From Fibrobacter sp. (GTDB lineage Bacteria > Fibrobacterota > Fibrobacteria > Fibrobacterales > Fibrobacteraceae): DNA of 64,000 nucleotides. Every line of letters starts with the position of its first letter. The first letter of the stretch is position 1. Where the stretch lies: positions 62,001 through 126,000 of the forward strand of contig JAKSIJ010000001.1 of NCBI GenBank assembly GCA_024398875.1. The letters are read 5' to 3'. The position numbers were made by a program, and so were the translations under genes. This document shows, one piece after another, positions 13,232 through 62,991 of this stretch. A model generated the notes under the pieces. That model made no database searches and was not told the origin of the DNA. It worked only from the letters and a program-made list of their open reading frames with translations.

Positions 13232-13613
13232 ATTCACAGTTAAAAATTCACAATGCAAAATTCGGTTGCGGACAGTTGCCGCATCTGATATAATTATGCA
13301 TTCTCAATTCAAGGCCCTTCGTTTTAAAATGGCCTCTCTCATAATGCGTACTTTATAATTCATAATTAGTATTTTGCTCTCTCCTCGACAAAATTTCGCA
13401 TTCTGCATTATTTCCTATGTCCGAAATCAATTCTGCATTAGTGCTTCGCACTCATTTTGACTTCGGCTCGACACAAACCCATAAGCGAGCAAAGTAGAAA
13501 AGCTTGCTTTTCTATTTTCGAGCGACAGGTTTGGTACTTGTACAATGCCCGAGCAAGCTCGGTCGCTGCACTCGCCTCGACAAAATTCAGCATTCTGCAT
13601 TCCGCATTCTGCA
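13232..13613. repeat. Gene-free stretch of palindromic and AT-rich repeats
   Basis: No gene is visible. The stretch holds AT-rich octamer-like units (13232-13260, 13350-13372). A hairpin GTGCTTCGCAC lies near 13441. A nested palindrome at 13473-13535 has core TAGAAAAGC/GCTTTTCTA, and another palindrome CCGAGCAAGCTCGG is at 13549-13562. A near-direct repeat CCTCGACAAAATT...GCATTCTGCATTATTTCCT occurs twice, near 13384 and 13574. The second copy runs into the last codons of the ABC ATPase gene. The 13473-13535 palindrome resembles the insertions in the carB fragment. Confidence 0.6.
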
Positions 13614-32330: not shown

Positions 32331-32403
32331 GGGGGTATAGCTCAGTTGGTAGAGCGCTAGGTTCGCAATCTATAGGTCAGGAGTTCGACTCTCCCTACCT
32401 CCA
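32331..32403 (+). tRNA. tRNA-Ala, anticodon CGC
   Basis: 73 nt with a full cloverleaf. The acceptor GGGGGTA/TACCTCC contains the alanine identity pair G3-U70. The D arm is GCTC/GAGC, the anticodon loop TTCGCAA (anticodon CGC, reading GCG), the T loop TTCGACT and the discriminator A73. CCA is not encoded. Two stem mismatches stand out: C27-U43 in the anticodon stem and A49-C65 in the T stem. Confidence 0.93.
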
Positions 32404-32508: not shown

Positions 32509-32515
32509 TGGGCAT

Positions 32516-32870
32516 GAGTAGCGGATGACCGCCGGCGCAAGCTGGAGGAAAGTCCGGGCACCAAAGAGCAGGATGCTGGATAACGTCCAGGCGCGGTAAC
32601 GCGACAGAAAGTGCAGCAGAAAGCAAACCGCCTGCAGCAATGCAGGTAAGGGTGAAAGGGCGAGGTAAGAGCTCACCGCACTCTTGGTGACAAGGGTGGC
32701 ACGGTAAACCTCATTCGGTGCAAGACCAAGCAGGAGTCCGTCCGCAAGGACCAGCCGCGGCTCGTGGCTGCTGGGCATCCGGGTAGGTCGCTTGAGGCGG
32801 TCGGTAACGATTCGTCCAGAGAGATGGTCATCGCCCTGCAAAGGGTACAGAACCCGGCTTATAACTACTC
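32516..32870 (+). ncRNA. rnpB: RNase P RNA (bacterial type A)
   Basis: The ends are set by helix P1, GAGTAG (32516-32521) with CTACTC (32865-32870). The conserved core is present: GAGGAAAGTCCGGGC near 32545, GGCACGGTAAACC near 32698, AGAGAGATGGTC near 32818, and ACAGAACCCGGCTTA near 32848. The latter pairs with the first to form P4. It is the catalytic RNA that trims 5' leaders from precursor tRNAs, including the tRNA-Ala just upstream. Length about 355 nt, normal for the family. Confidence 0.96.
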
Positions 32871-32875
32871 CTTAT

Positions 32876-32905
32876 GAAGGCTCTTGGCTTAACGCCAGGA
32901 GCCTT
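32876..32905 (+). terminator. Hairpin after rnpB, probable terminator
   Basis: GAAGGCTC and GAGCCTTC flank an inner TTGGC...GCCAG pairing. The T-run after it is poor (TCTCC), so termination may be partial. A further inverted repeat TTAGGAG/CTCCTAA follows at about 32912-32936. Confidence 0.6.
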
Positions 32906-42283: not shown

Positions 42284-42528
42284 AAAACACCTACCTAAAC
42301 AAAAAAAAACAGCGATTTTCCGCTCAAAGATACAAAATATCCATGAGGGGAAAACAGCTGTTTAGAAAGGATTGGCCAGAATTTATGGTAGCTAGCCTTA
42401 CACCTCTTCAATCGTGGCGTGATATTCCTGAAGAGACTTCACTTCGCCATGACCCTTCTTGGCAGCGGCAATACCCTTCACGGTATTATAGGCACCAGCC
42501 AGAGTGGTGATGTAAGGAATCTTGTACT

Positions 42529-42606
42529 GGACGCCTTTGGCGTCCGTACTGCGGTTCGGTCATAGAAAAATGCAAGCATTTTTCTGCGACACTCACCTTG
42601 CGTACT
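42529..42606. mobile_element. Palindromic insertion 1 in the carB fragment
   Basis: About 78 bp absent from intact carB, bounded by GTACT on both sides (42524-42528 and 42602-42606). It contains the hairpins GGACGCC/GGCGTCC and AGAAAAATG/CATTTTTCT (42564-42585). The motif GCGACACTCACCTTG follows. Layout matches insertion 2. It encodes nothing. Confidence 0.6.
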
Positions 42607-42628
42607 ATTGATGGCAGCCTTACGGATG

Positions 42629-42707
42629 GCGCATGGGCATAGCCCAAATGCTTGGCTCAGCCATGCCAGAAAACAAGTTTTCTGTCGCGGCATTCGCCTT
42701 GTGCATT
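42629..42707. mobile_element. Palindromic insertion 2 in the carB fragment
   Basis: About 78 bp absent from intact carB. It has a small hairpin (GGGC/GCCC), outer arms AAATGC/GCATTT, the core AGAAAAC/GTTTTCT (42668-42683) and the motif GTCGCGGCATTCGCCTTG (42684-42701). This is the same order of parts as insertion 1 with different arm sequences. Confidence 0.6.
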
Positions 42708-43180
42708 TGTCATCGGCAACGGCGTCGCGCTTGGCCCAAGGCGTATTGATGATGAGGCTCACCTGCTTGTTGACGATGACATCGAGAACGTCCGGGCGAC
42801 CTTCATTAATCTTGTTCACCACTTCGCACTTCACGCCACCCTTCTCGTAGAACTTGGCGGTGCCTTCCGTAGCGTAGATCTTGAAGCCAAGTTTCTGGGA
42901 AACGCCACAAGCCGAATGTCGCGACAGGCCGCTTGCGGACTGGCATGACTGAGGCGAGGATGTTTCTACAATTCCTTGCCGATTTCGATGGCCTGCTCAG
43001 ACAAGTTAACCTTGTCGGAGAGGCCGAGGACTTCGATTATGACGACCGTTCGGCTTACAGCCTCACTCCCACCTAAAGGTCGCCATGCCCACATAAGCAC
43101 TAAAGTGCTAAGTGGTCAAAGGTCGCCTCCGGCTCACAGGCGTGTTGCAAACCTTGGAAACCAGAGGCACGGTGCGGGAA

Positions 43181-43369
43181 AATTCTTCTTTGGGCGTTCC
43201 CGCACATACATGTGCGGTCGGGCTATATTCTAGGGGCAATTCGTGGCGCTTCGCACCTCAATTTGCCTCCTAGAACGAAGCCTTGCTCCCGAGAACATCA
43301 AGACGAAACCGCCCACAAGTCTTCGCCCCAAGGGGTCACTATCCCTAACGCGAAATTGGATTTTTTTTA
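43181..43369. repeat. Gene-free palindromic patch beside the carB fragment
   Basis: Contains the hairpin CCGCACA/TGTGCGG near 43199-43217. A 48-bp hairpin at 43228-43275 has arms TTCTAGGGGCAATT/AATTTGCCTCCTAGAA. A half copy of the ATTGC...GCAATGACG palindrome lies near 43321. No gene or RNA recognised. Confidence 0.6.
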
Positions 43370-49813: not shown

Positions 49814-49868
49814 GATTATAAGGGTCGGGGCTGGAGCTAGGGGGATTCTTCCCCCTCACCCCTAATCC

Positions 49869-52800
49869 TTAAATCTCTTCAATCGTGGCGTGGTATTCCT
49901 GCAGAGATTTCACTTCGCCATGACCCTTCTTGGCGGCGGCAATACCCTTCACGGTATTGTAGGCACCGGCCAGAGTGGTGATGTAAGGAATCTTGTACTT
50001 GATGGCAGCCTTACGGATAGCGGATTCATCCTTAATGGCATCGCGCTTGGCCCAGGGCGTATTGATGATGAGGCCCACCTGCTTGTTGACGATGACGTCG
50101 AGAACGTCCGGGCGACCTTCATTAATCTTGTTCACCACTTCGCACTTCACGCCACCCTTCTCGTAGAACTTGGCGGTGCCTTCCGTAGCGTAGATCTTGA
50201 ATCCAAGTTTCTGGAATTCCTGGCCCACAGCCATTGCCTGGTCAGCAAGATTTACTTTGTCTGAAAGGCTGATGAGAACCGCACCTTCGCTGGGAAGAAT
50301 GGAACCTGCAGCTTCCTGGCTCTTGTAGTAGGCCAAGGCGTAATCGCTGGAGAGGCCCAGGACTTCGCCGGTGGAGCGCATTTCAGGGCCAAGCACCGGG
50401 TCCACCTTCGGGAACTTGTCGAAGGGGAACACTGCTTCCTTGGCGCCGTGATGGTTGAACTTCTTTTCTTTCAGCTTCAAATCACCGATCTTTTCGCCGA
50501 GCATGAGGCGCGTGGCAAGGCGGGCCATCTGCGTGTTACAGACCTTGGAAACCAGAGGCACGGTGCGGGAAGCACGCGGGTTAGCTTCGAGGACGAACAC
50601 CTTGCCGTCTTCGATAGCGTACTGCATGTTCATGAGGCCGCAAACGTGGAGGTTTTCAGCAATCTTCCTGGTGTAATCCTTGATAGTCGCGAGATTTTCC
50701 TTCGTGATGGTGACCGGCGGGATGATGCAGGCGGAGTCACCGGAGTGTACACCCGCAAGTTCCACGTGCTCCATCACAGAGGGGATGTAGACGTGTTCGC
50801 CATCGGCCAAAGCGTCGGCTTCGCATTCGAGAGCGTTGTGGAGGAAGCGGTCGATGAGGAGCGGGCGATCCGGAGTCACGCCAACAGCCTTCGCCACATA
50901 TTCGCGGAGCATGTTCTCGTCGTAGATGACTTCCATGCCGCGGCCGCCAAGCACGAAGCTGGGGCGAATCATCACCGGGTAGCCGCCAATCTGCTTGACG
51001 CAAGCGAGGGCTTCGTCGATGTTTGTGGCCATGCCGCTTTCCGGCATCGGGATTTCCAGGCGGTCCATCATCTTGCGGAACAGGTCACGGTCTTCGGCGA
51101 TATCGATAGAATCAATGCTCGTGCCGAGAATCTTCACGCCCTCGTCGCTCAAAGCGCGGGCGATGTTCAGCGGAGTCTGGCCACCGAACTGCACGATGAC
51201 GCCAGCCGGCTTTTCCTTATTGTAAATCTGGAGCACATCTTCGAGGCTCACCGGTTCGAAATACAGCTTGTCGCTGGTATCGTAGTCGGTAGAAACGGTT
51301 TCCGGGTTGCAGTTCACCATGATGGTTTCGTAACCCAAATCCTTCAAGGCCATAGCAGCGTGGCAGCAGCAGTAGTCGAATTCGATGCCCTGGCCGATTC
51401 TGTTCGGGCCACCGCCGAGAATCATAATCTTCTTCGGGTTCGTCGTTGCAGTGGATTCGTCTGCGCAATTGTAAGTGCTATAGTAGTAGAAGCGGTTCTT
51501 GACGCCAGAAACCGGCACTGCGCACCAGCCTTCCACAACGCCGAGTTCGGTACGCTTCTTGCGCACATCCTTTTCGCGGATGCCGAGAATCTTCGCGATG
51601 TACTTATCGCTAAAGCCATCCTTCTTCGCCTGAATGAGGAGTTCATCCTTCGGCATCATTCCCGGTGTCTTGAGCATTTCTTCTTCAAGTTCCACCAGTT
51701 CCTTCATCTGCTGAATGAAGTAAGCCTTTTCGAAGGTCACGGCGTTCACTTCTTCAACAGTAGCGCCCTTACGGAGAGCTTCGTACATCTGGAAGTGGCG
51801 TTCACTGGAAGCCACCTTCATCATGTCCAGCAACTCTTCCTTGGTCTTCTTGTTGAAATCCTTGGCAAAGCCAAGACCAGAACGACCATTTTCCAAGCCG
51901 CGGATAGCCTTCTGCAAGGTTTCCTTGTACGTCTTGCCAATAGCCATCACCTCGCCCACAGCCTTCATCTGAGTGCCAAGGCAATCGTCGATGCCGCGGA
52001 ACTTTTCAAAAGCCCAGCGAGCAAACTTCAGCACGATGTAATCGCCGCTGGGAGTGTACTTTTCCAGGGTGCCATCACGCCAGTAATCCATCTGGTCGAG
52101 GGTCATGCCTGCAGCGAGCTTTGCAGAAACAAGAGCGATGGGGAACCCAGTAGCCTTGGATGCAAGAGCAGAAGAACGGCTAGTACGCGGATTGATTTCG
52201 ATGATCACGATGCGGCCGTTCTTCGGGTTGTGAGCGAACTGCACGTTGGTACCGCCAATCACACCAATCTTTTCCACAATCTTGAAGGCCTGACGTTTCA
52301 GTTCTTCTTCCAGCTTCTTGTCGATAGTGAGGAACGGAGCAGCGCAGAAGGAGTCGCCCGTATGCACGCCCACAGCGTCGATGTTTTCGATGAAGCAGAT
52401 GGCAATCATCTGGTTCTTAGAATCGCGAACCACTTCCACTTCCAATTCTTCCCAACCGAGAATGCTCTCTTCAATGAGGCACTGGTGAGTCATGGAGAGT
52501 TCAAGGCCGTTACCGCAAATGTTGCGGAGTTCTTCCACGTTGTAGCAGAAGCCGCCACCTGCGCCGCCCATGGTGTATGCCGGGCGAACCACAACCGGGT
52601 AGCCAATTTCAGCAACAATCTTTTCGGCTTCTTCAACCGTGTGGCAAATGCCAGAGCGAGGCGTATCAATGCCCAGTTCCTGCATGGTGGCCTTGAAAAT
52701 CTCGCGGTCTTCGCCGCGTTCGATGGCGTCCAGGTTCACGCCGATGACCTTCACGCCATACTTTTCCAAAACGCCAGCCTTGTTCAAAGCGCAAGCGAGG

Positions 52801-53087
52801 TTAAGCCCCGTCTGACCGCCCAAGTTCGGGAGCAAAGCCTGCGGGCGTTCCTTGGCGATAATCTGCTCCAAGCGAGCCACATTCAAAGGTTCGATATAGG
52901 TAGCGTCGGCCATCACCGGGTCTGTCATGATGGTAGCCGGATTGCTGTTCACCAGCACAATCTTGTAGCCCTGTTCACGCAAAGCCTTGCAAGCCTGGGT
53001 GCCAGAGTAGTCGAATTCGCAAGCCTGGCCAATCACAATCGGGCCAGAGCCAATGATCAATACCTTATCGATTCCTTCAATCTTCAT
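49869..53087 (-). CDS. carB: Carbamoyl-phosphate synthase large subunit
   Basis: 1072 residues, the normal length. The two synthetase halves each carry an ATP-grasp domain. The first begins [20 protein letters not shown] and has [16 protein letters not shown]; the second begins [20 protein letters not shown] and has [19 protein letters not shown]. The C-terminal MGS-like allosteric domain follows. It makes carbamoyl phosphate from bicarbonate, ammonia (from CarA) and two ATP for arginine and pyrimidine synthesis. carA is not in the window. Its leader carries a terminator-like hairpin, suggesting attenuation. A broken copy of its 3' end lies at 42398-43180. Confidence 0.97.
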   Translation of the reverse strand: [1072 protein letters not shown]

Positions 53088-61458: not shown

Positions 61459-62991
61459 ATGATTACGTTTCTAATTGGTGTTGCAATCCTCATTGGTGGA
61501 TACTTCACTTATGGAAAGTTTGTTGAACATGTTTTCGGCCCAGATGACCGTAAAACCCCAGCACTGGAAAACCCCGATGGCGTTGATCGTTTGGTACTTC
61601 CCCACTGGAAAAACACCCTCATCCAGCTTTTGAACATCGCTGGCATCGGGCCCGTGATAGGTGTGATTCTCGGAATCAAGTTCGGCGCCATCGTATTCAT
61701 TCTGCTCCCCATCGGTAATGTGTTCGGCGGAGCCGTCCACGACTACTTCTCGGGCATGATTAGCATGCGAAACAACGGGTACAACGTCCCCGCACTCTCC
61801 CGCAAGTTCCTCGGAAAGGGTCCCTCAAAAGTGGTCATGGCCCTCATCTCTGTGGCACTCATTCTCGTAGGCGCCGTCTTTACCAACACGCCGGCACAGC
61901 TCATCAACACGCCCATTCTCGTCGGGCAGCCCACTCCCACTATCTTCTGGATAGCAGTCGCCGCAATCTTTGCCTACTATTTCATTAGCACCTTCTTCCC
62001 CATCGATAAGGTCATCGGCCGTATCTACCCCATTTTCGGTGCCCTCCTGATTTTGGCGTCTGTTGCCATCCTCATTGGCATCGTTCCCCACCTGAATGTT
62101 TTGGATGAATTCTGCCTTTCCGACATTGGCAGCAACTTCACGAAACACCCTGCACACCAGCCCATCATTCCCATGCTGTTTGTCACCATCGCTTGCGGCA
62201 TCATCAGCGGTTTCCACAGCACCCAGAGCCCTCTGGTGGCCCGCACAGAAAAAAGCGAACGCCTTGGCCGCCAAACCTTCTATGGCATGATGATTATCGA
62301 AGGCCTCATTGGCATGATTTGGGCCGCCGGTGGCATGTTCATCTACCATCAGATGCCAGAACTTCTCACTGGAGCAAGCGGCGTGAAGGTGCTGAGTGAG
62401 CTCGTCTCTACCGTAATCCCCTTCGCTCCTATTTCTATCATGGTGGTGATTGGCGTGATTGTTCTTGCCATCACCAGTGGCGATACGAGCCTCCGGAGCC
62501 TCCGCCTCACCATCGCGGAACTTTTCAACCTGGATCAGAAGGACCCCAAAAAGCGCCTCGCTCTCACCGTCCCCATGTTCGCTATCTGCCTTGGCATCAT
62601 CTTCTGGAGCAATCTGAACCCGGAAGGATTCAACGTGCTGTGGAACTATTTCAGCTGGAGTAACCAACTCATGGCCGTCTGCAGCCTCTGCGTCACGGTG
62701 GTTTACCTCCGCAGCAAAAAGAAGAACTACCTCATCGGGCTTATCCCCTGCATGTTCATGTCTTTCATCTGCTTCGATTACATTTTCTGGGTGAGTCCCA
62801 CCAACATGAAGGGCGCTCCTCTCGGCTTTGGCTTGGATTACAACACCGCCATCGTCATTGCTCTCATCTGCGCCATCGCCCTGGGCTTCCTACTATGCGT
62901 TCGCGGTAAGATTCTCTCCAAGATGGAGGGTTTTGACCCGGACAAGTGGGATTACTCAATTGACGAGAAGAACAATTACAAAGCGAAATAG
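61459..62991 (+). CDS. CstA-family carbon starvation/peptide transporter
   Basis: 510 residues with about 13 membrane segments. Family motifs are GIGPVIGVILGIKFGAIVFI, NVFGGAVHDYFSGMISMRNN, TIACGIISGFHSTQSPLVAR and ITSGDTSLRSLRLTIAE. E. coli CstA is about 700 residues; this shorter type is common in anaerobes. Members import pyruvate or peptides during carbon shortage. It begins 15 bp after the barrel gene and probably belongs to the same transcript. Confidence 0.9.
   Translation: MITFLIGVAILIGGYFTYGKFVEHVFGPDDRKTPALENPDGVDRLVLPHWKNTLIQLLNIAGIGPVIGVILGIKFGAIVFILLPIGNVFGGAVHDYFSGMISMRNNGYNVPALSRKFLGKGPSKVVMALISVALILVGAVFTNTPAQLINTPILVGQPTPTIFWIAVAAIFAYYFISTFFPIDKVIGRIYPIFGALLILASVAILIGIVPHLNVLDEFCLSDIGSNFTKHPAHQPIIPMLFVTIACGIISGFHSTQSPLVARTEKSERLGRQTFYGMMIIEGLIGMIWAAGGMFIYHQMPELLTGASGVKVLSELVSTVIPFAPISIMVVIGVIVLAITSGDTSLRSLRLTIAELFNLDQKDPKKRLALTVPMFAICLGIIFWSNLNPEGFNVLWNYFSWSNQLMAVCSLCVTVVYLRSKKKNYLIGLIPCMFMSFICFDYIFWVSPTNMKGAPLGFGLDYNTAIVIALICAIALGFLLCVRGKILSKMEGFDPDKWDYSIDEKNNYKAK

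Follow-up and report, generated by a model that had tools for sequence, protein, structure and literature searches.

A family of short mobile palindromes, defined by its structure and read here as new, is dispersed through the genomes of Fibrobacter, and none of the enzymes for which we searched tracks it. On balance, the element would seem to be a non-autonomous mobile palindrome of about 70–80 bp, recognised by the fold of a single strand, of DNA or RNA, and not by the sequence of the duplex. The family is defined by its fold, has a recurrent anatomy, is present in all 19 genomes of the genus examined and has carriers in other phyla.

Insertions in a duplicated carB fragment

The window, the whole 64,000-nucleotide stretch that was analysed, corresponds to positions 62001–126000 of contig C1 in the 2.78-Mb assembly of the genome (G000:C1). 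On its minus strand it holds a degenerate second copy of carB, restricted to the 3′ part of the gene (42396–43180), pieces of which are 94–97% identical to the intact paralog on the same strand (49947–53078; TIGR01369, 1339 bits, no stops). The two lie approximately 7 kb apart, the corresponding regions being 42396–43180 and 49867–53078. The broken copy gives a partial match to TIGR01369 at C1:104691–104897, and beyond 43031 it is rearranged further, about 110 bp replacing about 255 bp. Aligned to the intact gene as the reference for an empty site, the broken copy contains three clean insertions, seen as gaps of 80, 75 and 71 columns, the pieces that adjoin the second and third being locally more diverged from the paralog. 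Two insertions at 42529–42707 had been proposed in the initial annotation and are borne out by these gaps; the third, on the opposite strand, was absent from it and was revealed by the carB alignment.

The first insertion, E1 (80 bp, 42528–42607, plus strand), opens with a hairpin, H1, at 42529–42545 (GGACGCC and GGCGTCC around TTT), which is apparent from the sequence and the fold. This is followed by an arm that we term x′ (GTAC, 42546–42549), by the core (42551–42601, 67.5 bits with the covariance model described below) and by the partner of the arm, x, at 42602–42605; the sequence, the alignment and the fold agree on the arms. E2 (75 bp, 42635–42709, plus strand) has the hairpin GGGC-ATA-GCCC at 42635–42645 (sequence and fold), the arm AAATGC at 42646–42651, the core at 42652–42702 (70.0 bits) and the partner GCATTT at 42703–42708, the arms being identified from the sequence, the fold and the arm analysis. 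E3 (71 bp, 42899–42969, minus strand) is without H1, is closed by the arms GAAAC/GTTTC seen in its fold, and has its core at 42907–42957 (minus strand, 69.0 bits). All three were among the copies from which the model was built, and score 67.5–70 bits with E < 2e-15. The first two had been described as having the same length and order of parts. The order of hairpin, arms, core and 3′ motif holds, while the lengths, 80 and 75 bp, are similar only. E1 is flanked by GTACT on both sides, as had been noted, but this need not be a target duplication: given two extra bases on the right, the paralog is matched equally well by an insertion of 80 bp that duplicated nothing. GTAC also stands directly before the insertion of E1 (42524–42527) and GCAT directly before that of E2 (42631–42634). 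No palindrome that might have pre-existed in the target was seen by eye in the paralog at the E2 and E3 sites. Folded as single sequences, E1 and E2 are more stable than their shuffles (z −5.5 and −2.7), whereas E3 taken alone folds no better than shuffled sequence (z only −0.9).

Four other genomes (loci L067, L068, L069 and L352) have a duplicated carB-type C-terminus in which the element always occupies one and the same codon, between SLQE or SLQG and YH. L067–L069 each have an intact carB-type end and then a second short copy that is split by the element, and what the element splits in L352 is a fragment of carB with stops before it. Ends of carB and the element recur together, in the window and at these four loci.

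A further likely member had been placed at 13473–13535. It is real, yet divergent, and lies on the minus strand, with the core at 13481–13525 (24.6 bits, E 3e-4 for 64 kb, in a model search with the filters off) and with limits of 13471–13544 and arms CAAACC/GGTTTG assigned by eye. It is nested within, and splits, a host element on the plus strand (13441–13587, limits by eye; 21.8 bits at 13531–13580) of the ATTTTGAC-TCGGCTCG...CGCTGCACTCGCCTCGA-CAAAAT subfamily, uninterrupted siblings of which are found at L049, L053 and L061–L064. A 20-base form of the 3′ motif, allowing at most 3 mismatches, is present three times in the window (in E2, in E3 and at 13560, not in E1) against 0.01 expected, and over the genome a 16-base form, allowing at most 2 mismatches, matches 43 times and its reversed control 19 times; a looser 14-base form, with 26 occurrences in the window against 25.2 expected, is no better than chance. 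With Rfam, the window and seven loci gave no match for the element at the gathering score, and the five weak matches around 42300–43300 all fall under their gathering scores. The window also contains a tRNA gene (32331–32403) followed by a bacterial class A RNase P RNA gene (32513–32877).

Fold and distribution of the family

The covariance model, R1, has 51 columns and 16 pairs and was built from nine copies in the same genome; its E-values are rough owing to a short calibration. In the nine training copies 94.2% of the pair cells can pair, against 68.3% after shuffling. In 43 ungapped copies from the collapsed set (see below) that lie outside the training set the figure is 96.9% against 71.5% (maximum 75.0% in 1000 shuffles), and both sides of a pair have changed in 191 cells compared with 57.5 in the shuffled data (maximum 78 of 1000). 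As these 43 copies were found with the model they lean towards it, and the weight therefore rests on the count of double changes. Further copies and covariation, the lack of either of which would have told against the initial reading, are both present.

Most of the letters in the stems are free, while the loops and mismatches are conserved, both in E1–E3 and in the core of the family. Invariant in all 43 copies are the G3–C47 pair, T6, C7, A12, the T13.G36 wobble, A25, T43, C44 and T48; C37, opposite A12, is nearly so (41 of 43), as is the CAAG loop. The core is laid out as a paired box, a TC/TC spacer, a second paired box and a fully variable stem. P2 and both short helices covary as the arms do, and H1 varies too. 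Conserved loops and mismatches together with free stem letters suggest that a protein, or RNA itself, reads the folded strand.

The search for further copies scored the best 150 candidates of a first look in each genome, and the copy numbers are lower bounds for this reason. The genome of the window has at least 51 matches at E ≤ 1 and at least 47 at E ≤ 0.01. All 19 genomes of the genus, this one included, carry the element, each with between at least 9 and at least 134 copies at E ≤ 0.01 (G004 has at least 118 even at E ≤ 0.001), and among the 31 genomes searched in all, none of the 12 from the same order or class has a copy at E ≤ 0.01. Six other genomes were reached through named loci with the element. 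At E ≤ 0.01 Clostridiales Firm_16 and Treponema Th196P3bin63 have at least one copy each, Oscillospiraceae Pal332 at least two, Peregrinibacteria CG2_30_44_17 at least three, the Spirochaetes MAG Cu122P1bin9 at least 43 and Fibrobacteraceae RGIG8517 at least 23. A search with stricter filters through 41 genomes centred on the spirochaete gave matches at E ≤ 0.001 in three of them (at least 30, 2 and 1). Such a patchy distribution is as expected for a mobile element.

A pattern scan of genome contigs returned at least 120 stretches, 99 titled Fibrobacter or Fibrobacteraceae and 21 otherwise. Ten of the 21 match R1 at E < 1e-4, a test in which part of the sequence had been preselected by the pattern, and some copies in MAGs of other phyla share the same layout. 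One of the ten, L296 from a Gastranaerophilales MAG, looks like sequence from Fibrobacter and might have been mis-binned, and two others come from the same spirochaete. Since all ten carriers are MAGs, single copies could be contamination, though 43 copies over many contigs of one spirochaete MAG are harder to explain in this way. A link to viruses was not upheld, as the four pattern matches in viral contigs are all weak under the model (at most 17.7 bits). In several genomes copies stand in tandem, 80–95 bp apart. One copy (L020, near G000:C12 position 195140) lies within a repeat that by eye resembles a structured RNA (GTAAGTCRCTAAGC...GCGTGYGAGCTTAC...ACTTATACAAC), with an element-free sibling just upstream. 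Among the Peregrinibacteria loci (L351, L355 and L358), the copies at L355 and L358 are beside or within sequence that by eye is like the 3′ half of a tRNA.

Arms, target sites and the search for a mobiliser

A frequent layout of the element is a direct repeat, H1, x′, the core and a second direct repeat that contains x. The arms were analysed on 183 copy records (168 distinct), mainly best-scoring matches, which reduce to 72 non-redundant sites; copies with identical cores, considered as a test of transposition, lie mostly within longer repeats and were hence collapsed. A stem of at least 5 bp between x′ and x is present at 38 of the 72 sites, compared with a mean of 6.2 expected (maximum 14 in 1000 re-pairings). 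Exact direct repeats of at least 7 bp occur at 23 sites against a mean of 1.8 (maximum 7), and 49 sites are without one. By eye the direct repeats measure 4–10 bp, examples being CTACTTGTT, GCTACCA, GATTACT, ACTCCCAC, GGGGTTTTT and TTGTCATT.

The arms depend on the site. Similar cores were defined by at most 6 differences, the last four bases left out, which gave 32 pairs among 35 loci, the pairs not being independent. A locus's own arms pair better than swapped arms in 26 of these, worse in 2 and equally in 4, and given that the swap lowers pairing in 26 of 32, it would seem that many sites make or choose an arm of their own. L070 and L072, for instance, have two core differences, and their arms (AAGCCAA/TTGGCTT and ATACCT/AGGTAT) and H1 hairpins differ; similar cores elsewhere also carry different H1 and x′, with x′ mostly fitting its own flank better. 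The closest pair of cores, L084/L185, with one difference, behaves in the opposite way (own arms 5, swapped 7). For the three insertions whose empty site is known, the fit between inserted arm and native flank extends over 4, 4 and 5 bases, which random carB junctions reach in 5.6%, 9.1% and 3.4% of cases; the combined Fisher p is 0.008, or 0.04 with either side allowed, for arms that were chosen after looking. These fits are suggestive of the arms being copied from the target.

How such an arm might arise can be sketched. An enzyme acting in trans would join the folded core to a nicked target, and the free end of the hairpin would fold back on the attached target and copy it, giving x′. At the other junction the same might happen once more and leave H1 as its record. 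Repair would leave the short direct repeats, whether from a staggered joint or from that second copying. If the arm is indeed copied, every insertion carries an inverted copy of its landing site, which would serve as a signature of insertion; a site-dependent arm in this role was not found in the open-licence literature searched. We put forward only tentatively the full reading, namely folded-strand mobile palindromes that cross phyla, with arms from fold-back copying, an inverted copy of the landing site at each insertion and a kind of mobiliser new to REP-like repeats.

A possible alternative, likewise to be entertained with reserve, is that the arms are a fast-evolving internal helix kept by compensating changes, with x′ owing nothing to the target and the direct repeats being ordinary target duplications. 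In the subfamily with the H1 hairpin GACGCC-NNN-GGCGTC, x by eye is variable between fixed letters, and x′ and x vary together there (L067, L069, L073, L079, L204 and L211), as an internal helix would. As x looks internal in this subfamily, it is not always target DNA. The like covariation of P2 and both short helices, and the variation of H1, also fit an internal helix. Some loci have clear direct repeats yet poor pairing of x′ (L084, L088, L112 and L163), a point against the main reading. Against it, loci with 1–3 core differences, the last four positions left aside, can differ wholly in their arms, each fitting its own flanks (L091/L150 and L070/L072, though L084/L185 does not follow). Within longer repeats of the TTGTCATT type, x is part of the repeat and x′ still fits (L105, L121 and L075). 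At L083 the direct repeat ACTCCCAC belongs natively to a 467-aa ORF (guaA by eye) whose end, at 1643, reads PPGTIEWE; the model core closes there with TTAC, made up of the stop codon of this neighbouring gene and the next base, which again tells against an internal helix.

Longer Fibrobacter repeats that start with TTGTCATT or TGTCATT are recurrent hosts, with the element near their first bases (L105–L111, L117–L119, L121–L126, L155–L157, L162, L164 and L168); we take these repeats to resemble CGTC-tagged REPs. The right end of the element by eye is often CTA or TTA (L163, L137, L088 and L067), from which it follows that an antisense gene entered at its 3′ end would get an immediate stop codon.

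Mobilisation in trans by some enzyme, as first proposed, is likely, and that proposal stands as regards the dispersed family, the conserved pairing and the insertion into the duplicated carB fragment; its REP/MITE part is not supported as regards the RAYT enzyme or, by eye in E1–E3, the MITE termini. The Y1/RAYT transposase, the reverse transcriptase and the integron integrase do not track the element. It is unlikely, but not without points in its favour, that a tyrosine recombinase, of the host or of a mobile element, acts on the folded strand in the manner of an integron attC site. The succession of paired box, TC/TC spacer, paired box and variable stem and the tandem arrays would suit such a substrate, and tyrosine recombinases matching the integron-integrase model (TIGR02249) below its cut-off are present in 8 of 9 carriers, as well as in 4 of 14 control genomes. 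None of the nine genomes has a match over the curated cut-off, however, the element has no GTT core, and direct repeats of 7–10 bp would be unexpected.

We regard as improbable a REP-like element mobilised by a RAYT or IS200/IS605 Y1 transposase, with x′ and x as the guide and cleavage-site pair. In IS200/IS605 elements the left cleavage site pairs with its guide, and E1 and E2 are each preceded by a tetranucleotide (GTAC, GCAT) complementary to x′; the element is also short, palindromic, dispersed and mostly outside ORFs. Its carriers, however, mostly give no support to this enzyme. Y1_Tnp (PF01797) was found in only 6 of the 19 genus genomes, all of which have the element, and in 1 of the 12 others. 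A transposase of this kind was to be looked for where copies are many, and the searches of G006 (134 copies) and of the spirochaete genome G033 (43 copies) gave none. Some of the genus genomes are incomplete, though the Y1-free G003, G008, G010 and G014 are 99–100% complete. Ten Y1 loci, with about 1.5 kb on each side, contain no copy of the element by model at E ≤ 1. In addition, many copies have direct repeats of 7–10 bp, the tetranucleotide varies and there is no orientation bias. A resident reverse transcriptase, acting by target-primed copying of RNA, was rejected as well: of the 19 genus genomes only four have RVT_1 (PF00078), G000 and G004 not among them, and so do four of the 12 others. 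By eye, no obvious transposase of an autonomous parent was seen among the ORFs between clustered copies at one G004 locus, and the ORFs around copies in other phyla are housekeeping-like.

Copies are seldom within genes. In the Fibrobacter stretches 10 of 64 lie inside an ORF of at least 100 aa, by crude ORF calls, against 947 of 1149 random points. Among 55 copies the neighbouring genes were convergent in 15 cases and divergent in 4, but this apparent preference was gone in a larger sample (13 and 15; 13 and 16 in its forerunner). The strand of the element shows no bias with respect to local GC skew, with 41 of 80 stretches positive (45 of 86 in an earlier count that included stretches with non-Fibrobacter titles); a lagging-strand element of single-stranded DNA would be expected to show such a bias, so this counts against one. 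That the element is now immobile, a structured RNA such as a 3′ UTR or terminator-like element selected as RNA and spread by duplication of larger repeats, has little probability: many copies do lie inside longer repeats (hence 72 sites from the 168 distinct records), most are outside ORFs and the same codon of duplicated carB ends is occupied in four other genomes, but the insertions in the carB pseudogene, the nested insertion and the occurrence in other phyla imply that the element has moved at one time or another, and the convergent preference did not last.

Comparison with known systems

Short palindromes for which no transposase is known have long been puzzling in bacterial genomes. GTAG REPs, with their RAYT enzymes, are similar in being short dispersed palindromes with variable stems that lie mostly outside ORFs. 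The element differs in that it is longer, in its paired arms outside an internally looped core, in its direct repeats and in that Y1/RAYT was not found in most of its carriers. A constant GTAG tag was not seen by eye in the copies inspected, although the E3 insertion happens to start with GTAG. As for a MITE of a DDE transposase, E1–E3 by eye have no terminal inverted repeats beyond the short arms, their ends being H1 on the left and x on the right, and the direct repeats, taken as target duplications, would range from 4 to 10 bp by eye, with 7 bp or more at 23 of 72 sites.

Integron attC sites consist of two paired boxes, an unpaired central spacer and a variable terminal stem. The element is alike in all three features, but its sequence is different and no integron integrase passed the cut-off in the nine genomes. 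Rickettsia palindromic elements are palindromes inserted within genes. Insertion within genes is shared, whereas E1–E3 lie in a pseudogene and E1 (80 bp) and E3 (71 bp) are not multiples of three. The Rickettsia elements are named in PMC3733652, which also treats the CGTC-tagged REPs.

The latter are described there as palindromes of several phyla, spirochaetes among the carriers, without a dedicated transposase, and with a stem of 8–9 bp, an unpaired CGTC tag and a CCA-like tail; the question of their transposase was left open there in 2013 (PMC3733652). The likeness is in the spread of palindromes over several phyla including spirochaetes and in the want of a dedicated transposase. The differences are that the fold of the element is compound, that there is no constant CCA tail and that its GTC is paired, core columns 9–11 pairing with 38–40 in 126 of 129 cells. 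The hairpin elements of sponge mitochondria (PMC2800124) are single, tandem and double hairpins whose route of spread is unknown; they are alike in hairpin forms and in spread, differ in belonging to organelles, and are likened by their description, not by sequence.

No description of the element was found in the open-licence literature searched, a search outside which most subscription papers fall. With a family defined by its fold, filled sites beside an empty paralog and carriers in other phyla, the questions of which enzyme acts and whether the folded strand is its substrate become directly testable. By its behaviour, the element belongs with the short palindromic repeats for which no transposase is known; its defining features place it outside the GTAG and CGTC REPs, the classical MITEs, the Rickettsia palindromic elements and the attC sites.
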